64,000 bases of DNA from Actinacidiphila yanglinensis (GTDB lineage Bacteria; Actinomycetota; Actinomycetes; Streptomycetales; Streptomycetaceae), in NCBI RefSeq assembly GCF_900107965.1, contig NZ_FNVU01000008.1:186001-250000 (forward strand), in the 5' to 3' direction. The first letter of the stretch is position 1. The number at the start of each line of letters is the position of its first letter. This document shows, one piece after another, positions 54,447-61,278 of the stretch. A model generated the notes under the pieces. That model was not told the DNA's origin and did not search any database. It was given only the letters and a program-made list of their open reading frames with translations. The position numbers were made by a program, and so were the translations under genes.

Positions 54447-55283
54447 TCAGTCGCCGTACCCGGCGGGCTCGCGGGGCCGGTCCGGGCGGTCGTACATCGG
54501 CGGGCGGGAGGGCGCGGGCGGCCGCAGCGGACCGCGGGCCAGCCGGTGGCCGGCGAAGGCGAGCAGGATGGCGAGCAGCCCGCCCCCTCCGGTCCACAGC
54601 CAGCGCGGCGACCACCAGGTGCCGGCCCAGCCGTCCGAGGGCGCGACGCGGGGGCCGTTCGCGGTCACCACCGGGGCGACGGAGCCGTCGACGGCCTGGC
54701 TGCCGGCGGTGCCGTCGGAGGTGGCCTCGACGGTGGCGTGCACCGGCTGACCGAGGTCGGTCGAGGGCAGGTCCAGCACGGTGACGCGCACGTAGTACGC
54801 GCCGCGCAGCGGGTCGTTCGACCACGGCTCGGCCCAGGAGCGGATGGTCCGCAGGTGGCAGACGAGGTCGACGGACGTCGCGGACGCGGCCGCGGTGGCG
54901 GTCTGGGTGCCGTAGCGGCAGGGCTGGCGGCGGCGCAGGCCGTCGTAGACGTCGACCTGCCAGCTGGACGCGCCGTGCCGCGTCGAGGTGGTGGGGAAGG
55001 TGACGGTGGCGTGCACGGTGACGTGCTGCCCGGTGTCGGCGGGGAACTGCCAGTACAGGTAGTCGCCCGCCGAGGCGTCGGCGGTGGCCTGGACCCCCTG
55101 CCCGACCACGGTGGCGGTGCGGAAGTCGGTGCCCGCCTGGGTGGGCGGCGCGTCGGAGCCGGTGGCGGAAGCGCTCGGGTCGGGGGTGGCGCTGGAGTCG
55201 TCGGCGAGTGCGGTGCCGGTCAGGGAGGTCAGCGCGGCGGCGGCCAGCAGTGTGACCGCGCCGATCAGTCGGAGCGTGCGCAT
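54447..55283 (-). CDS. Secreted, C-terminally anchored protein coupled to the vWA gene
   Basis: A 278-residue surface protein of unknown function. The signal peptide covers residues 1-27 (LIGAVTLLAAAALTSLTGTALA). A Ser/Ala/Thr-rich linker precedes beta-rich sequence (GDYLYWQFPADTGQHVTVHATVTFPT, GAYYVRVTVLDLP). A single membrane helix near 225-245 and a Pro/Arg-rich cytoplasmic tail end it. Its ATG overlaps the vWA gene stop (TGATG), so the two proteins are made together and probably form a membrane complex. Four Cys lie in the extracellular part. Confidence 0.8.
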   Translation of the reverse strand: MRTLRLIGAVTLLAAAALTSLTGTALADDSSATPDPSASATGSDAPPTQAGTDFRTATVVGQGVQATADASAGDYLYWQFPADTGQHVTVHATVTFPTTSTRHGASSWQVDVYDGLRRRQPCRYGTQTATAAASATSVDLVCHLRTIRSWAEPWSNDPLRGAYYVRVTVLDLPSTDLGQPVHATVEATSDGTAGSQAVDGSVAPVVTANGPRVAPSDGWAGTWWSPRWLWTGGGGLLAILLAFAGHRLARGPLRPPAPSRPPMYDRPDRPREPAGYGD

Positions 55284-56545
55284 CAGCGGGTCCTCCCCGT
55301 GTTCAGGCGCCAGCGGGCGGCCCAGCCGGTGATCAGCCCCGCGACGATGCCGGTGGCGGCGAGCAGGCCGAGCAGCCACCAGCCGCGGCCGAGTCCGTAG
55401 AAGGCCACGTCGGACGGCTGGTCGGGGCTGTGCACGAGGTCGATGGACAGCTCGACCGGGAGCCCGGGCGTGGTCTTGACCGAGGCGGGCGCGGAGAAGG
55501 AGTTGCCGACCTGGAGGCACACCGTCTCGGCCGGGGTGTCGTCGTCGTCCGCCTTCGGTTTCGGGTAGCGGATGCCGGCCGACACGGCGTCGGTGCGCCC
55601 GGTGCCGCTCTCGTCGTCGCGGACGATCTCCCGCCCGTGCAGGGTCACGCCGCGCAGCAGGACGCCGTAGTCGGCGTTCACCGAGCGGTCGTCGGAGACG
55701 GTGGCGGAGGCGCGCAGTTCCTGCCCGGGGCGCACGTCGACGCGGTACCAGCGGTTCTGGGAGAACGTCTCGCGGTCGCTGTACAGCCCGCGCTTGAGCA
55801 CCGGCGCGCCCGCGCAGGTGTCGGCGCCCTGGGTGGCGGTGGGCGTCACCGCGACGTCCGTGCTGCGGTCGACGAGCTGCTTGACCTTGGTGGTGAGCTG
55901 CTGGCGGTGCTGCACCGTGGTGTAGGTGCCGCCGGTCGCCTCGGCGATGCAGCTGAGCTGGCTGCGGGTGTGGGTGTCGGGCACCAGGCCGAGGGTGTCG
56001 ATGGTGAGGTCGACACCCTGTGCGGCGATCTGCCGGGCCACGTCGCAGGGGTTGGCCGCGCAGGTGTCCTCGCCGTCGGTGATGAGCACCAGGCGGTGGG
56101 TGCCGTCGCCGCCCTTGATGTCGCTCGCGGCGGCGAGCAGCGCCGGGCCGATGGGGGTCCAGCCGGTGGGCTGGAGGGTGGCGACGGCGCTCTTGGCCTG
56201 ATCCCGGTTGAGCTCGCCGACGGGGTAGAGCTGCTTGGTGTCCTTGCAACCGGTCTTGCGGTCGTCACCGGGGTAGTTGGCGCCGAGGGTGCGTATGCCG
56301 AGCTCGACTCCGTCGGGCGTGGAGTCCACGACGTCGTCGAACGCCTGCTTGGCGGCGGACATCCGGGACTGCCCGTCGATGTCCTTGGCACTCATCGAGC
56401 CGCTGACGTCGAGGACGAGTTCGACCTTGGGGGTGGCTCCCGGCACCGGTTCCCCGGCGTGGGCGGTGGCCGGCAGCAGGCCGCAGGCCAGCGCGGCCAT
56501 CAGCCCGCAGGCCGATCCGGCGGCCAGTAGCTTTCGCATGATCAT
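55283..56545 (-). CDS. Secreted von Willebrand factor A domain protein
   Basis: A 420-residue surface protein. The signal peptide is residues 1-30. The vWA domain (about 40-235) has the MIDAS metal motif VLDVSGSMSAKD and the later TPIGPAL and ITDGEDTC elements, with disulphide-forming Cys. A beta-rich region follows, and a membrane helix near 385-408 with a short RWRLNTGRTR tail anchors it. It probably takes part in protein interactions outside the cell with the coupled partner. A −10-like TACGAT (minus, 56557-56552) ends seven bases before the ATG and there is no ribosome site, so the mRNA may be leaderless. Confidence 0.88.
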   Translation of the reverse strand: MIMRKLLAAGSACGLMAALACGLLPATAHAGEPVPGATPKVELVLDVSGSMSAKDIDGQSRMSAAKQAFDDVVDSTPDGVELGIRTLGANYPGDDRKTGCKDTKQLYPVGELNRDQAKSAVATLQPTGWTPIGPALLAAASDIKGGDGTHRLVLITDGEDTCAANPCDVARQIAAQGVDLTIDTLGLVPDTHTRSQLSCIAEATGGTYTTVQHRQQLTTKVKQLVDRSTDVAVTPTATQGADTCAGAPVLKRGLYSDRETFSQNRWYRVDVRPGQELRASATVSDDRSVNADYGVLLRGVTLHGREIVRDDESGTGRTDAVSAGIRYPKPKADDDDTPAETVCLQVGNSFSAPASVKTTPGLPVELSIDLVHSPDQPSDVAFYGLGRGWWLLGLLAATGIVAGLITGWAARWRLNTGRTR

Positions 56546-56756
56546 CGCAGGATCGTAGTGAAGGGTGGGCCGAAACCCGAAGTCGGCTGGTCAGCAAGGT
56601 CGTTGGGGTCAATCGGACGGACTTTGACGTTTCTTTACAACCCGGGCGCGGGACCGGTCGTCTCTGTTCCCGATTCCGGACGACGGGTTCCGCGAGTCGC
56701 CCGGGGAAGCCCCGGGAGGGGCCTGGGAAGACATCCGGGGAGACAAGGAGCAGGAG

Positions 56757-57485
56757 ATGCGCAGCAGTTCACTCGCCGCGGGAACCGCGGTGTTCGCGAT
56801 GGCCGTGCTGGGAGCCGTGCCGGCGATGGCGTCCTCGCCCGTCGCGGACTCCACCGGCACTCCCATGTGCGGCACTTCGCAGCTCAGTGCCGCCCTCGGG
56901 GGCGGCGACGCGGGTGCCGGAAACCTCTACCGCTACCTGGTGATCACCAACACCAGCTCGACGACCTGCCACCTGACCGGCTACCCGGGTCTGTCGATGC
57001 TCGACGCGAACGGCCAGCAGATCGGGCAGCCCGCCACCCGGGAGCCCCGGACGTACTCCCCGGTCGTGCTGAAGCCCGGCGCGTCGGCGAGCGACACCAT
57101 CCACACCGCCAACCACCAGGGCACCTGCCTGCAGCCGTCCTCGAAGCTGAAGATCTACCCGCCCGGGAACACCGCGTCGCTCACGATCCCCGGCGCCATC
57201 ACCGAGTGCTTCAACACCTTCTCGGTGACCCCGATGGGTCCCGGCAAGGGCGGCAACGACGGCGGCACCCCGACCACGTCACCCACCTCCGCACCGTCGA
57301 CGGGTGCCAACGGCGGCGCCCAGGTGCCCACCGTGCCCTCGGGCGCCCCCGACACCGGCCTGGCGGCGACCGGTTCGCACGGCAGTGACAGCACGGCGCT
57401 CGCCGCGACCGGCGCGGGCGCGCTCGTGCTGGGTGCGGCCGGCTTCGCGGTGGCGCGCCGCCGCAGGGTGCGGGACGGCCGTTGA
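56757..57485 (+). CDS. DUF4232 protein with LAXTG sortase signal
   Basis: A 242-residue secreted protein. Signal peptide 1-25; DUF4232 domain about 36-160 (GDAGAGNLYRYLVITNT, TCHLTGYPGLSMLDANG, SPVVLKPGASASDTIHTAN, with four Cys). A Thr/Ser/Pro-rich spacer leads to the sorting signal: LAATG occurs twice (before SHGSD and before AGALV), followed by a hydrophobic stretch and RRRRVRDGR. LAXTG signals are used by class E sortases of high-GC Gram-positives, yet the adjacent gene encodes a class F enzyme. AAGGAGCAGGAG precedes the ATG. The stop overlaps the sortase start (TTGA). Confidence 0.9.
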   Translation: MRSSSLAAGTAVFAMAVLGAVPAMASSPVADSTGTPMCGTSQLSAALGGGDAGAGNLYRYLVITNTSSTTCHLTGYPGLSMLDANGQQIGQPATREPRTYSPVVLKPGASASDTIHTANHQGTCLQPSSKLKIYPPGNTASLTIPGAITECFNTFSVTPMGPGKGGNDGGTPTTSPTSAPSTGANGGAQVPTVPSGAPDTGLAATGSHGSDSTALAATGAGALVLGAAGFAVARRRRVRDGR

Positions 57486-58189
57486 GCCGCCCGGCCGGCG
57501 TGACCGCCGTACGTCAGGAGGCCGCCGGCCGCCGGGCCCGCCGCGGGAGCGCCGTGTGCGCGCTCGCGGCGGGCCTGGCGCTGCTGTGCGGGTGCGCGTC
57601 GACCGCGCCCGCGCAGACGCCGTCCGACGGCGGGTCGGTGGCGCCGAGCACCTCGGCCGCGGGCCACGTGCCGAGCCCGTCCACGTCCGCACCCGCGGCC
57701 TCGGCCTCGGCCTCGGCGCAGCCCATGGCCCGCTCGACGCCCGCGCGCCTGCGCATCCCCTCGATCGGCGTCGACACGCCGGTGGAGTCCCTCGGCCTGG
57801 CCGCGGACGGCGAGGTGAAGGTGCCGCCGATCGAGAAGCACGCCCCCGCGGGGTGGTACGACGGCTCGCCGACGCCCGGCCAGCTCGGCCCCTCGGTGAT
57901 CCTCGGGCACGTCACCGTCGGCGCCTACGGTGACGGGGTGTTCCTGCACCTGGACGAGCTACGCAAGGGGGAGACCGTGTCGGTGGTCCGCGCCGACCGC
58001 TCGGTGGCCACCTTCGTCGTGGACCGGGTGCAGACCGTCGCCAAGTCGCATTTCCCGACATCGGCCGTGTACGGGAACGTCGACCACCCTGAGCTGCGTC
58101 TCATCACATGCGGCGGGACCCGGATCAGCGGGGGCGGCGGCTACCCGGACAACGTGATCGTGTACGCCTCGCTGGTGTCCGGATCGTGA
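57482..58189 (+). CDS. Class F sortase
   Basis: A 235-residue transpeptidase. An N-terminal hydrophobic segment (about 21-38, ending LLCGC, a possible lipobox) and an Ala/Ser/Pro-rich spacer precede the sortase domain (about 85-235). Catalytic residues: His in VILGHVTVG, Cys in LRLITCGG and Arg in GGTRISGGGG. The domain layout RLRIPSIGVDTPVESLGL is typical of class F, whose natural substrates are poorly known. The TTG start overlaps the upstream stop codon, so it is translated with the LAXTG protein, its most likely substrate (inference). Confidence 0.92.
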   Translation: MSRPAGVTAVRQEAAGRRARRGSAVCALAAGLALLCGCASTAPAQTPSDGGSVAPSTSAAGHVPSPSTSAPAASASASAQPMARSTPARLRIPSIGVDTPVESLGLAADGEVKVPPIEKHAPAGWYDGSPTPGQLGPSVILGHVTVGAYGDGVFLHLDELRKGETVSVVRADRSVATFVVDRVQTVAKSHFPTSAVYGNVDHPELRLITCGGTRISGGGGYPDNVIVYASLVSGS

Positions 58190-58779
58190 ACCCGACGCCG
58201 ACCGTACCGGCCCGCCGACCGTGCGGCCTGACCGGGCCGGTACGGTCGGCGGGCCCCGCCGGGCAGTCACGACGAGCGAGGGGAGCGGTCATCCGGTCTC
58301 AAGAGCGCGCGGCCTCCGAGCTGTTCGCGGCCCTGTACCCGCGGTTGGCGGGCTGGGTGCGCAAGCTGGTGGACGACGACGGGACCGCGCACGAGATCGC
58401 GTCCGAGGCGTTCACCCGGCTGTGGGCGCGCTGGACGAAGGTCGAGGAGCCAAGCGGGTTCCTCTACGTGACCGCGGCGAACCTGGTGCGCGACCACTGG
58501 CGCAGACTGGAGCGCGAACGGCGCGCCCTGCGCCGGGTGACGACGGAGGAAGCGGTGAAGCAGCAGCCGGAGGCGACCGACCCCACGGTGCGCATGCTCG
58601 TGCAGTCGCTGCCGGAGCGGCTGCGCAACCCGGCGCTGCTCTACTACTACGCCGACCTGCCGGTCCGGGAGGTGGCGGCCCTGCTGGGCCGCCGGGAGGG
58701 CACCGTCAAGGCCGATCTGCACGCCGCCCGTGAACTGCTGCGCGCCAAGCTCGGGGAGCACCATGACCGGATTTCCTGA
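58186..58779 (+). CDS. ECF-like RNA polymerase sigma factor
   Basis: A 197-residue sigma factor when started at the GTG that overlaps the sortase stop codon (GTGA). Region 2 is ELFAALYPRLAGWVRKLVDDDGTAHEIASEAFTRLWARW and FLYVTAANLVRDHWR; region 4 is LPERLRNPALLYYYADLPVREVAALLGRREGTVKADLHAARELL. Conserved sequence begins only at about residue 40 (VIRSQERAASELF), right after AGGGGAG, but that position has GTC/ATC, not a normal start. A perfect 19-bp inverted repeat lies between the two points. The N-terminus is therefore uncertain. The downstream DUF4232 membrane gene overlaps by 17 nt. Confidence 0.82.
   Translation: MNPTPTVPARRPCGLTGPVRSAGPAGQSRRARGAVIRSQERAASELFAALYPRLAGWVRKLVDDDGTAHEIASEAFTRLWARWTKVEEPSGFLYVTAANLVRDHWRRLERERRALRRVTTEEAVKQQPEATDPTVRMLVQSLPERLRNPALLYYYADLPVREVAALLGRREGTVKADLHAARELLRAKLGEHHDRIS
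58196..58251. repeat. Perfect 19-bp inverted repeat at the sortase–sigma junction
   Basis: CGCCGACCGTACCGGCCCG (58196-58214) is repeated exactly inverted at 58233-58251, with an 18-nt loop. It starts seven bases after the sortase stop codon. It could be a terminator, an attenuator of sigma translation or a large operator. Confidence 0.9.
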
Positions 58780-59764
58780 CCGCCCCGGGGTTCCGGACCG
58801 GCCCGACGACCACGGTGGACCCGGGGCTCCCGGCGGTTCCGGCGGTTCCGGCCACCAGGGCGGTGGCGACCCCGGCGCGCGCGCCGATCCCTTCTCCCAC
58901 ACGGAGCGGTTCGACCGCCTCGGCGGGATCGACGACCCCGAGGGCGACGGCGCCCCCGACCCGGTGGAGCGCCTGATGCGGCCGCCGGGCGGCTACCTTG
59001 CCGCCCCACCGGGCTCGTTCGAGCGCATCAGGCGCCGGGCGGTGCGGCGGCGCACGGTCCGCGCGCTCGCGGGCGGCGGCGTGGCCGCCGCCGTGATCGC
59101 CGGTGCGCTCTTCGTGACCGGGGTGATCGACCCCGGCGGCAACGGCGACGAGGTGGTCGGCCCCCCGGCCAGCAACTCTCTGACCGGCACCCCCACGCCC
59201 TCCGGCACGCCGACGGCCCGGCCGTCCGGCACACCGGCCACCGGCACGGGCGGCTCGCACACCCCGGCCGCGCCCACTCCCACGACACCGACCTCCGGCG
59301 CCACCACCGGGAGCGCCGGCGCGCCCTCCACCGCCCCGACGGGCGGGGACACCACCCCGATGTGCGCCGCCTCGCAGCTCAGCGCCGCCCTCGGCGGCGG
59401 CGACGCGGGCGCCGGCAACCTCTACCGCTACCTGGTGATCACCAACACCGGCTCGACGGCCTGCCATCTCACCGGCTATCCCGGCCTGTCGATGCTCGAC
59501 GCGAACGGCCAGCAGATCGGCCAGCCCGCCACCCGCAGGCCCATGGACTACTCCCCCGTCGTGCTGAAGCCCGGTGGGACCGCCAGCGACACCATCCACA
59601 CCGCCAACCAGCAGGGCACCTGCCTGCCGGCCTCGACACAGCTCAAGATGTACCCGCCGGGCAGCAAGGCGTCGCTGACGTTCACCGGGCAGATCACGGA
59701 GTGCGCCGGCATGTTCGAGATCACCCCCTTCATCGCGGGCGAGACCGGCAATCCCCCGTCCTGA
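58763..59764 (+). CDS. Membrane protein with extracellular DUF4232 domain, partner of the sigma factor
   Basis: A 333-residue protein. Residues 1-95 are cytoplasmic (Gly/Pro/Asp-rich, then FERIRRRAVRRRTVRAL), one membrane helix covers about 98-118, and a long Thr/Pro-rich external linker leads to a DUF4232 domain (about 200-325). This layout (cytoplasmic N-terminus, single helix, outer sensor domain) resembles anti-sigma factors, and the gene overlaps the sigma gene by 17 nt, but no clear zinc anti-sigma motif is present. The DUF4232 domain matches the upstream LAXTG protein at 99 of 124 positions by hand count. GGGGAG precedes the ATG at 58763. Confidence 0.85.
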   Translation: MTGFPDRPGVPDRPDDHGGPGAPGGSGGSGHQGGGDPGARADPFSHTERFDRLGGIDDPEGDGAPDPVERLMRPPGGYLAAPPGSFERIRRRAVRRRTVRALAGGGVAAAVIAGALFVTGVIDPGGNGDEVVGPPASNSLTGTPTPSGTPTARPSGTPATGTGGSHTPAAPTPTTPTSGATTGSAGAPSTAPTGGDTTPMCAASQLSAALGGGDAGAGNLYRYLVITNTGSTACHLTGYPGLSMLDANGQQIGQPATRRPMDYSPVVLKPGGTASDTIHTANQQGTCLPASTQLKMYPPGSKASLTFTGQITECAGMFEITPFIAGETGNPPS

Positions 59765-59775
59765 CCCGGGCGCAC

Positions 59776-59870
59776 GGGTGTGCGCCCGGCGCACGGGTGT
59801 GCGCCCGGCGCGGGGGTGTGCGCCCGGTGCGGGGGTGTGCGCCCGGTGCGGGGGTGTGCGCCCGGTGCGG
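59776..59870. repeat. 19-bp tandem repeat, five copies
   Basis: Five direct copies of GGGTGTGCGCCCGGTGCGG (first two with small changes) run without spacers from 59776 to 59870, 12 nt after the DUF4232 stop codon. The first copy, together with GGGCGCAC before it, forms an 8-bp hairpin (59768-59775 with 59780-59787) and could act as a terminator. The gap between genes (59765-59991) holds no gene. Confidence 0.92.
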
Positions 59871-59991
59871 GGGTACCTGTGAGGTACGCGAAGCTTTGAA
59901 TCCGGACGCGAAGCGGTAACGGCCTGTGAGGATCCGCGGGCCTGATCGGCGTCCCCGGCCTAGCCTTGAGGACGGGGAAGGAGAGGTGACC

Positions 59992-61278
59992 GTGCTGCGA
60001 CGATCCCGGGCCGACCGCCCTCCCGCCCCGGAGCGCTCGCAGTCCCCTGCCGCGCCCGGGGACGGCGAGGCCGACCGCGTGGACCAGGATGCCGAGCCGG
60101 ACGTCATGCCGGCGGCCGACGGAGGGTCCGACACCGGGAGCAGCCTGCTTCCGGTCGCGATGGACCGGCCGTCCGCGCCGCTGTCCCTGACGGTGCTGCC
60201 CTACGCCGTGATGGCGGTGGTGGCCCTGGTGGACGGGATCGGCGGCGCGAGCGTGGGCCTGCTGCCGCTGGTGGCGCTCGGCCCGGCGTTCGCCGGGCTG
60301 GTCGGCTCCTGGGTGCGGACCGCGGTGATCGGCGCGCTGGCCGTCGCCGTGGTCTGCGCGCTGGGCGCGGTGGACGGGCTGTTCGCCGAGCGGCGCGGGT
60401 TCGCCGCGATCGGCGCGGTGCTGGGCGTGACCATCGCCGCGGTGATCGCCGCGGTCACCCGCCAGCGGCGCGAGGCGGAACTGGCGAACGTCCGGTCGAT
60501 CGCGGAGGTCGCGCAGCGCGTCCTGCTGCGGCCGGTCCCGCGCAGGGCCGGCCCTCTGCGGGCCGCCGTGTCGTACACCTCCGCGGTGACCGAGGCCAGG
60601 ATCGGCGGGGACCTGTACGAGGTGGTGTCGTCGCCCGCGGGGGTGCGGGTGATCATCGGCGACGTGCAGGGCAAGGGGCTGGACGCGGTGGAGACGGCCG
60701 CGGTGGTGCTGGGCGCCTTCCGCGAGGCGGCGCACGACGAGAAGACCCTGACCGGGGTGGGTGAGCGGGTGGAGCGCGCGGCCGACCGCACCCTCGGCGG
60801 CGAGAAGTTCGTCACCGCGGTGATCGCGGAGATCCGCCCGATGGGCGGCACCACGCTGCTGAACTTCGGCCACCCGCCGCCGATGATCGTCGGTCCCCGG
60901 GGGCAGGTGCGCTTCCCCGAGCCGCCCGCGTACTCGCTGCCGCTGGGCCTCGGGTTGCGGCAGGACCAGCCGCCGCTGCCGTTCGAGGTGGACTTCCACC
61001 CCGGCGACCAGATGCTGCTGTACACCGACGGGGTCACCGAGGCCCGGGACCGGTCGGGGACGTTCTACCCCCTCGGCGAGCGGGCGCACGTGCTGGCCGA
61101 CCGCGACCCGCAGCGGGCCCTGGAGGCGCTGCGGGCGGACCTGATCCGGCACACGGGCGGGCCGCTCCACGACGACGCGGCGATGCTGCTGCTGCGCTAC
61201 CAGGACGCCGGTGACCCCTCGCGGCCGGCCCGGGCCGACGCGGCCACGGGCGACGGCGGGGACGCGGTCGGGGACTGA
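59992..61278 (+). CDS. Membrane-anchored SpoIIE-type PP2C phosphatase (second copy)
   Basis: A 428-residue protein. A polar N-terminal part (1-65) is followed by three or four membrane segments (about 65-155), a linker helix (RREAELANVRSIAEVAQRVLL) and a SpoIIE PP2C domain (about 175-405) with EARIGGDLYEV, IIGDVQGKGLDA and LYTDGVTEARD. It resembles the phosphatase at 40149 in layout and in the motif YT-x-A/S-x-x-x-EARIGGDL, so the two are paralogues. The likely start is GTG 59992 (AAGGAG eight bases upstream); GTG 59986 is in frame and also possible. No anti-sigma partner is adjacent. Confidence 0.9.
   Translation: MLRRSRADRPPAPERSQSPAAPGDGEADRVDQDAEPDVMPAADGGSDTGSSLLPVAMDRPSAPLSLTVLPYAVMAVVALVDGIGGASVGLLPLVALGPAFAGLVGSWVRTAVIGALAVAVVCALGAVDGLFAERRGFAAIGAVLGVTIAAVIAAVTRQRREAELANVRSIAEVAQRVLLRPVPRRAGPLRAAVSYTSAVTEARIGGDLYEVVSSPAGVRVIIGDVQGKGLDAVETAAVVLGAFREAAHDEKTLTGVGERVERAADRTLGGEKFVTAVIAEIRPMGGTTLLNFGHPPPMIVGPRGQVRFPEPPAYSLPLGLGLRQDQPPLPFEVDFHPGDQMLLYTDGVTEARDRSGTFYPLGERAHVLADRDPQRALEALRADLIRHTGGPLHDDAAMLLLRYQDAGDPSRPARADAATGDGGDAVGD

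Follow-up and report, generated by a model that had tools for sequence, protein, structure and literature searches.

A candidate self-activating display operon of Actinacidiphila yanglinensis in which a putative membrane regulator and a likely sortase substrate share one domain

A stretch of 64,000 nucleotides from the genome of Actinacidiphila yanglinensis (contig NZ_FNVU01000008.1, positions 186,001 to 250,000; hereafter the window) contains four overlapping genes on the forward strand, spanning window positions 56757-59764, which encode a surface protein, a class F sortase, a sigma factor of the extracytoplasmic function (ECF) type and a membrane protein. The first and the last of these proteins carry the same domain, DUF4232. 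We propose, with a probability of roughly 60%, that the genes constitute a self-activating display operon, in which sensor and outputs share this domain and recognise the same thing. A fuller version of this proposal, which we hold tentatively and would rate just short of an even chance, is that the sigma factor serves a single sortase and the one substrate of this enzyme almost exclusively, that the domain of sensor and output was gained in both proteins together and is partly gene-converted, that the few further targets share this domain, and that the arrangement was built on an ancestral domain-less circuit which may watch protein O-mannosylation or the envelope.

The four genes, their order, their coordinates and their overlaps are those given in an earlier note on this DNA (Table 1): genes 1 and 2 share the sequence TTGA (57482-57485), genes 2 and 3 share GTGA (58186-58189), and genes 3 and 4 overlap by 17 nucleotides (58763-58779). 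The presence of one domain in the surface protein and the membrane protein of one operon was likewise borne out, the two end proteins scoring 105.6 and 95.9 bits for DUF4232 in Pfam (cut-off 27). In a BLASTP alignment of these proteins 103 of 133 residues are identical (77%), close to the 99 of 124 residues that had been counted by hand. The accompanying statement that the DNA is nearly identical over long stretches is somewhat overstated: across the domain 318 of 393 positions agree (81%), and the longest exact runs measure 35 and 33 nucleotides. The sortase matches PF04203 and the class F model NF033748 (195.6 bits, cut-off 166), and inspection by eye revealed GHVT, TCGG and DNV in its sequence; class F sortases are characterised in the available sections of one study by His and Cys, with Asn replacing Arg (PMC6998099). 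The sigma factor exceeds the cut-offs of PF04542 and PF08281 and scores 60.1 bits with TIGR02937 (cut-off 42.9). The genome from which the window derives encodes two sigma factors of this kind, the next best being at most 32% identical, and contains 11 DUF4232 matches. A further DUF4232 gene is located approximately 3.3 kb beyond the left end of the window (G000:C22:182346-182732).

Table 1. Features of the four-gene cluster and its promoter in window coordinates (aa, amino acids; nt, nucleotides; P/S/T, proline, serine and threonine; pLDDT, predicted local distance difference test score)
Feature	Position	Strand	Remarks
Putative ECF-type promoter TTTACAACC-N15-TCGTCT	56634..56663	+	93 nt 5' of surface gene
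Surface protein (gene 1)	56757..57485	+	242 aa; signal peptide, DUF4232, P/S/T-rich stalk, sorting signal, hydrophobic stretch, basic tail
DUF4232 domain, surface protein	56868..57236	+	aa 38-160; predicted beta-sandwich, model pLDDT 91.7
Sorting motif PSGAPDTG	57336..57359	+	family form PxG[AG][PAG]xTG
Class F sortase (gene 2), lipobox-like N-terminus	57482..58189	+	235 aa, TTG start; NF033748
ECF-type sigma factor, regions 2 and 4 (gene 3)	58186..58779	+	197 aa, GTG start
Single-pass membrane protein, proposed anti-sigma-like regulator (gene 4)	58763..59764	+	333 aa
Conserved cytoplasmic segment, gene 4	58958..59065	+	DPxxxLLRPxxxLxxPPGxFxxIRRRAxRRRxxR
Predicted transmembrane helix, gene 4	59072..59128	+	low-confidence model helices 86-103 and 105-118; hydropathy
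P/S/T-rich tether outside membrane, gene 4	59129..59353	+	54% P+S+T; pLDDT mostly ~50 or less
DUF4232 domain, membrane protein, distal end of tether	59363..59722	+	aa 201-320

To assess the conservation of the cluster, we examined the surroundings of the best sortase hits and, across 150 family genomes, those of the sigma hits; 40 loci came from named records. Of the 119 loci given, 100 are distinct by their sigma DNA, the 19 with the same sigma DNA as another locus having been dropped. A class F sortase homologue is present in all 35 genomes searched in the genus, and 61 of the 150 family genomes contain a match to the sigma factor at an expect value (E) of 1e-40 or better. In 94 of the 100 distinct loci the sortase gene lies beside the sigma gene. 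Both end proteins of these 94 sortase-linked loci carry DUF4232 in 31 cases, including L156, where the frames are broken, and neither does in 59, "neither" meaning that tblastn with the two domains of the window gave no match at 1e-3, so that a very distant DUF4232 may escape. The remaining four loci (L046, L066, L173 and L176), three with the domain in the membrane protein only and one in the surface protein only, are all truncated at contig ends. In the genomes of L066 and L173, a DUF4232 surface gene was found at the edge of a different contig (L210, detected by tblastn, and L235, by eye, respectively). In the domain-less loci the surface protein comprises little beyond a sorting signal on a P/S/T-rich stalk behind the signal peptide, and the outside part of the membrane protein is P/S/T-rich as well (median 53% P+S+T among 52 proteins, three of them below 40%). 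Five of these membrane proteins yielded neither DUF4232 nor any other convincing domain when searched against Pfam.

The four-gene order is thus kept in the sortase-linked loci, and the shared domain was found separated only where a contig is cut. Scattered genes, which the earlier note had named as an observation that would refute its reading, were not seen among the sortase-linked loci and occurred only in the form of a missing sortase, namely in L123, L195, L190 and 20 loci outside the family. In L123 and L195, both from Streptomycetaceae, the sigma gene is accompanied by a membrane DUF4232 gene without a sortase match, and the fetched upstream stretch contains neither a second DUF4232 match nor a sorting signal.

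The earlier note had assigned the surface protein the sorting signal LAXTG, which is of the class E type. This assignment did not survive the comparison, as the conserved motif is PxGAPDTG-like. A C-terminal pattern retrieved 82 surface frames, of which 81 contain PxG[AG][PAG]xTG, 10 contain LAxTG and none contains LPxTG. Since this pattern requires D[T/S]G and is therefore biased towards the motif, the count was repeated on frames found through the DUF4232 domain alone, where PxG[AG][PAG]xTG occurs in 31 of 32 (28 with the strict form PxGA[PA]DTG), LAxTG in 10 and LPxTG in none. The motif is likewise there in nine of the twelve loci missed by the pattern, D being replaced by N, A or G in some of them; in three Catenulispora loci the residue is N. 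In total, the motif was found in 90 of the 94 loci, the remainder being three contig-cut loci and L156 with its broken frames. In the surface protein of the window, LAATG directly follows PSGAPDTG. The sorting-signal model NF058571 (GVDTG type, cut-off 29 bits) gave 24.7 bits on this protein and 29.3 bits in the genome frame. The same model yielded 13 weak-to-fair matches in the window genome, ten of which became loci; a GxxDTG-type ending was observed only in the two cluster proteins among these ten, and we dismissed the rest of the ten as further PxGAPDTG substrates. A lipobox-like motif, loosely defined, is present in the sortases of 85 of the 94 loci. The surface protein is presumably sorted by the enzyme encoded next to it, in its own operon.

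A putative ECF-type promoter of the form TTTACAACC-N15-TCGTCT precedes the cluster. In its strict form it was found in 68 of the 94 sortase-linked loci, and in the 82 loci in which the region was examined the surface gene is preceded by a match with at most three mismatches in 81 cases (58 with none), the sole failure being the contig-cut L191. Shuffled-sequence controls mostly showed five to six mismatches, with one shuffle at two. Simple scans of positions 56400-60100 revealed neither a terminator-like nor a sigma-70-like site. In the genus, 26 matches were obtained in 35 genomes, never two per genome; 25 of them are located 324-1256 nucleotides upstream of a sortase gene on the same strand, and the last one precedes a surface gene at a contig end. 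Among the 150 family genomes, 52 contain the exact motif, with 55 occurrences between them. All 52 are among the 61 sigma-bearing genomes, and none of the 89 others (those without a sigma match at E 1e-40 or better) contains it; since close relatives among these genomes do not count as independent, a Fisher test of this contrast does not yield a fair probability. With at most one or two exact sites per genome, confined to sigma-bearing genomes, this is an unusually clean pairing of a sigma factor and a promoter, and the sigma factor of the operon is the presumed user of TTTACAACC-N15-TCGTCT.

The window genome harbors a second cluster of the same kind without DUF4232 (L071, G000:C27:253783-255456), in which the -35 element is changed to TTTACAGCA, and another group of clusters carries TTTACAAT[C/T] at this position. 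Judged from these promoter sequences, paralogous circuits may differ in the -35 element that they employ (TTTACAACC, TTTACAGCA or TTTACAAT[C/T]).

Judged by their coordinates, 49 of these 55 sites front a cluster; one more (G072:C145) fronts a surface gene that belongs to the cluster but is located at the end of a contig, and five lie elsewhere. Four of these five unlinked sites, in genomes which we judged to belong to Streptacidiphilus (G072, G081, G084 and G087), are each followed by a gene whose secreted product contains a single DUF4232 domain (77-87 bits). The distance from the end of the motif to the ATG is 41-47 nucleotides, one gene having an earlier in-frame GTG, and each of the four genomes contains a cluster of the DUF4232 type. 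Where the promoter of a domain-less cluster in these genomes could be read (L188 and L189), it has TTTACAGCA, and the exact motif therefore points to the sigma factor of the DUF4232-type cluster. Hence, the same sigma factor probably drives an unlinked secreted DUF4232 protein in some Streptacidiphilus genomes and would in this way make more of the domain of its own sensor, as in the SigI/RsgI system considered below. The fifth site, in G078, which has a domain-less cluster, precedes a gene for a 698-amino-acid protein without a Pfam match at E 0.01; a protein encoded further downstream presumably resembles sedolisins.

The proposal also draws on the pairing of the sigma factor with the membrane protein. 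Among the sortase-linked loci in which the membrane gene was called (87 of 94), it starts with the 17-nucleotide overlap on the sigma stop in 84, this start having been preferred wherever it was present. The mean pairwise identity of the cytoplasmic segment is 0.41 (82 proteins), whereas that of the tether is 0.31 (78 proteins), a comparison limited by the low complexity of the tether and by the use of a different alignment procedure for each part. The membrane proteins of L189, L191, L192 and L194 do not fit the core pattern and were excluded from the core count.

The pairing extends beyond the family. When 345 genomes were sampled from the class, a relative of the sigma factor at E up to 1e-30 was present in 39, and 20 loci from outside the family, comprising most of the better matches, were fetched. 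Neither a sortase nor DUF4232 was detected in these 20 loci by tblastn with the window proteins at 1e-3. In 18 of them, a gene judged by eye to encode a membrane protein overlaps the sigma stop, and the outside parts of these proteins vary; in the other two the sigma gene is cut or untraceable. The partner protein in L122 has a BNR-like outside part, to which others appeared similar by eye. In L215, L217, L219, L220 and L223 the partner proteins carry a different outside domain, which by eye is similar in all five. Since the partner stays while its outside part changes, it resembles a sensor-regulator, and the partnership is kept both in the sortase-linked loci and in 18 of the 20 loci outside the family.

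We then traced how the domain pair arose. In a tree of sigma factor and sortase (93 rows), which was built by a fast method that gives no bootstrap values and was rooted on Catenulispora, where the surface proteins also lack the domain, the DUF4232-bearing loci form one clade (Shimodaira-Hasegawa-like approximate likelihood ratio test value 92) nested among domain-less loci. L156 was left out of this tree, its sortase match being short and the pieces of its assembly-broken frames, also seen in its twin L101, being unjoined. The tree of the sigma factor alone, from which L126 was omitted, needs two changes; a single change suffices in 60% of 200 bootstrap trees. Read most simply, these trees suggest that the domain-less form is ancestral and that DUF4232 was gained once, in both proteins, and was then retained in both. 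In the tree of the domain itself, the surface copies do not fall into one clade and the membrane copies into another; five changes are needed, and none of 200 bootstrap trees has one. When each locus is compared with its nearest relative, its own two copies resemble each other more closely than the cross pairs do on average, both in protein sequence (22 of 29 loci) and at fourfold sites (21 of 29). The excess averages 2.2 points (protein) and 3.9 points (fourfold sites), is modest and partly reciprocal, and the observed means were reached in none of 10,000 permutations, relatedness being uncorrected. Short domain pieces were omitted, namely L101 and L123 from the domain tree and the membrane copy of L052, L156 and L123 from the own-pair comparison. 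The two copies thus appear to evolve partly in concert, which fits occasional gene conversion.

Based on these observations, we favor the following mechanism. The membrane protein would hold the ECF sigma factor at the membrane by means of its short, Arg-rich cytoplasmic segment and would expose DUF4232 as an external sensor on the flexible P/S/T-rich tether. Engagement of this sensor, or a change in the tether, would free the sigma factor, which would then transcribe its own promoter. The operon would thereby yield more sigma factor, more sensor and the DUF4232 surface protein, which its class F sortase would attach to the wall at PxGAPDTG, so that sensor and output would recognise the same thing. 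The role of gene 4 as an anti-sigma factor, its contact with the sigma factor, the existence of a common ligand and the direction of the signal are what we infer from this arrangement.

Several findings weigh against this proposal. No known anti-sigma domain was detected in gene 4 by Pfam at E up to 10, nor in ten of its relatives at E up to 5. The predicted fold of DUF4232 is a generic beta-sandwich. The domain model is confident (pLDDT 91.7, predicted template modeling score 0.86), as is DUF4232 in the model of the membrane protein, in which it is the only confident part, the cytoplasmic and tether parts remaining mostly below 60 pLDDT. A search by sequence for solved relatives of the domain returned none that convinced (best E 0.28), and the fold matches are weak and generic (best Foldseek E 0.0015, Z at most 6.2); we therefore claim no ligand for it. 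The gain of DUF4232 in both proteins counts as one event, and the 31 concordant loci are consequently not 31 independent tests. The four secreted DUF4232 genes behind the unlinked promoters are 65-88% identical and thus orthologous, which reduces them to one or two observations, and three of their genomes, G072, G081 and G087, also carry a domain-less cluster (L191, L188 and L189, respectively). In the window genome no further convincing promoter site was found at up to two mismatches: two of the four sites at this threshold are the promoters of its two clusters, and the two others, in contig C28, were rejected as targets because they look like chance, a reversed control having given one site. 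Six of the nine other DUF4232 loci of this genome gave, in a looser search, best matches at five to seven mismatches. Finally, L190 (G024:C2:2715500-2724500), from the same genus, contains the surface gene, the sigma gene and the membrane gene with neither a sortase match nor such a promoter.

A possible, though less probable, explanation is that the P/S/T-rich tether lets the regulator monitor the condition of the envelope, for example by way of O-mannosylation: if the sugar donor is lost, the tether would be bare, it would be cleaved and the sigma factor freed, with DUF4232 being accessory. This explanation overlaps our proposal and differs from it in the signal. It is consistent with the domain-less clusters, in which the outside segments are P/S/T-rich and, in the five searched, devoid of a convincing Pfam domain. 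It also draws on Streptomyces coelicolor, where a cluster is annotated with cd05829, which we take to be the class F sortase domain. The genes SCO3735-SCO3738 of this organism show the same order and the same gene kinds, as they are described as encoding a membrane protein (SCO3738), a lipoprotein/sortase (SCO3737, cd05829), an ECF sigma factor (SCO3736) and a putative secreted protein (SCO3735); the available passages of this account mention neither a promoter or sorting motif nor a domain common to two of the proteins or an anti-sigma role (PMC5882110). Judged by gene order and annotation, they are probably the DUF4232-less form of the operon. According to these passages, SCO3736, SCO3737 and SCO3738 were the genes most significantly induced in a polyprenol-phosphate-mannose synthase mutant (13-, 37- and 32-fold, respectively), and SCO3735, the putative secreted protein, adjoins them (PMC5882110). 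However, induction of SCO3735 itself is not stated in the passages on the mutant, and the RNA sequencing data come from the ppm1 mutant only, so that effects on the membrane are possible (PMC5882110). Moreover, the main text of the S. coelicolor glycoproteome study, as far as available, names no SCO373x protein (PMC6593405), and SCO3736 is lowered by acid shock in the data excerpted from another report (PMC2631018), which also counts against a general stress role. SCO3736 further appears in a table of a germination network, in the available part of that study (PMC3902916). The published S. coelicolor data provide a candidate inducing condition.

The idea put forward in the earlier note, that the membrane copy of the domain reports on the surface copy, is possible and is the weaker of the two readings of the shared domain. 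In its explicit form, which we consider unlikely, the two DUF4232 domains bind each other, and the membrane copy, held by the wall-anchored copy, reports whether the surface protein has been made and sorted. The presence of the domain in both proteins or in neither, in all loci that are not contig-cut, most simply by joint gain, would be expected under such binding, as would the likeness of the copies within a locus (22 of 29 by protein, 21 of 29 at fourfold sites) and their position at the free end of a flexible tether. However, the likeness at fourfold sites points partly to gene conversion and not to selection on an interface, L123 and L195 combine the sigma factor with a membrane DUF4232 in the absence of a sortase, of a second DUF4232 and of a sorting-signal match, and the exact promoter also fronts an unlinked secreted DUF4232 gene. 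Because of L123 and L195 and of this promoter, our proposal that sensor and outputs recognise the same thing fits better.

It is more improbable still that gene 4 encodes a second, membrane-held display form of the domain and no regulator, with the sigma factor being governed by its own transcription alone. The missing match to a known anti-sigma domain would suit this idea. It is at odds with the 18 of 20 loci outside the family in which, in the absence of a sortase match, the sigma gene is still overlapped by a gene 4 whose ectodomain differs, and with the cytoplasmic segment, which looks more conserved than the tether (0.41 versus 0.31, the alignment methods differing). A chance duplication of the surface domain without a functional link, as might be imagined for a domain as common as DUF4232 with its 11 matches in the window genome, is hardly credible, given that both copies are retained across the clade and that further DUF4232 genes lie behind the shared promoter.

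The proposed operon matches a sensor to its output, a layout known so far only in loosely similar systems. In the SigI/RsgI system of Clostridium thermocellum, the sensor domains of RsgI are related to domains of secreted cellulosome proteins. Like gene 4, RsgI is described in the available sections of PMC12203970 as binding the sigma factor with its cytoplasmic part, crossing the membrane with one helix and exposing an exchangeable sensor domain, and binding on the outside frees the sigma factor (PMC12203970). Comparable to this system, the sensor domain DUF4232 is also found in surface proteins and in motif-preceded secreted proteins, which the sigma factor would control. In contrast to SigI/RsgI, the operon has an ECF-type sigma factor, a sortase together with a likely substrate, and a near-private promoter, and no RsgI N-terminal or autocleavage domain was detected: at E up to 10, Pfam returned just DUF4232 and a weak DUF1127 for gene 4, and NCBIfam at E up to 1 gave matches below the cut-off only. 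By this analogy, the operon appears to work like SigI/RsgI and yet is not a member of that family, because the defining domains were not found. Pairs of ECF sigma factors and class I anti-sigma domain (ASDI) proteins likewise feature an adjacent membrane partner whose outside domains vary between groups, according to the available part of PMC7406223; unlike ASDI anti-sigma factors, gene 4 has a short, Arg-rich cytoplasmic segment without a Pfam anti-sigma match.

The role of class F sortases in actinomycetes is described as unknown in the available sections of two reports (PMC13251363, PMC6998099), the first of which records that deletion of all four class F sortase genes of Actinoplanes missouriensis led to no phenotypic change (PMC13251363). 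In contrast to the class F sortases described so far, the enzyme studied here is coupled to a dedicated sigma factor and one nearby likely substrate. Class F sortases and DUF4232 thereby both gain a regulatory setting, a sorting motif and a directly assayable promoter. We found no mention of DUF4232 in the open-access collection that was searched and, in the portions of it available to us, no description of this system.

The surroundings of the cluster contain further features. Directly 3' of the membrane gene lies a tandem array with a 19-nucleotide unit in 5.2 copies (59776-59874, 96% matches). Upstream, a divergent gene on the reverse strand (55283-56545) encodes a secreted VWA-domain protein. 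A relative of this protein is present in the fetched stretch of 19 of 24 loci of the DUF4232 type (among L042-L067); it was not found in the stretches of L061, L063, L065 and L067, and L066 is contig-cut. Downstream, the cluster is adjoined by a gene for a SpoIIE-type phosphatase (59926-61278, forward strand), of which a close relative (>70% identity) is encoded nearby in seven of the same 24 loci.

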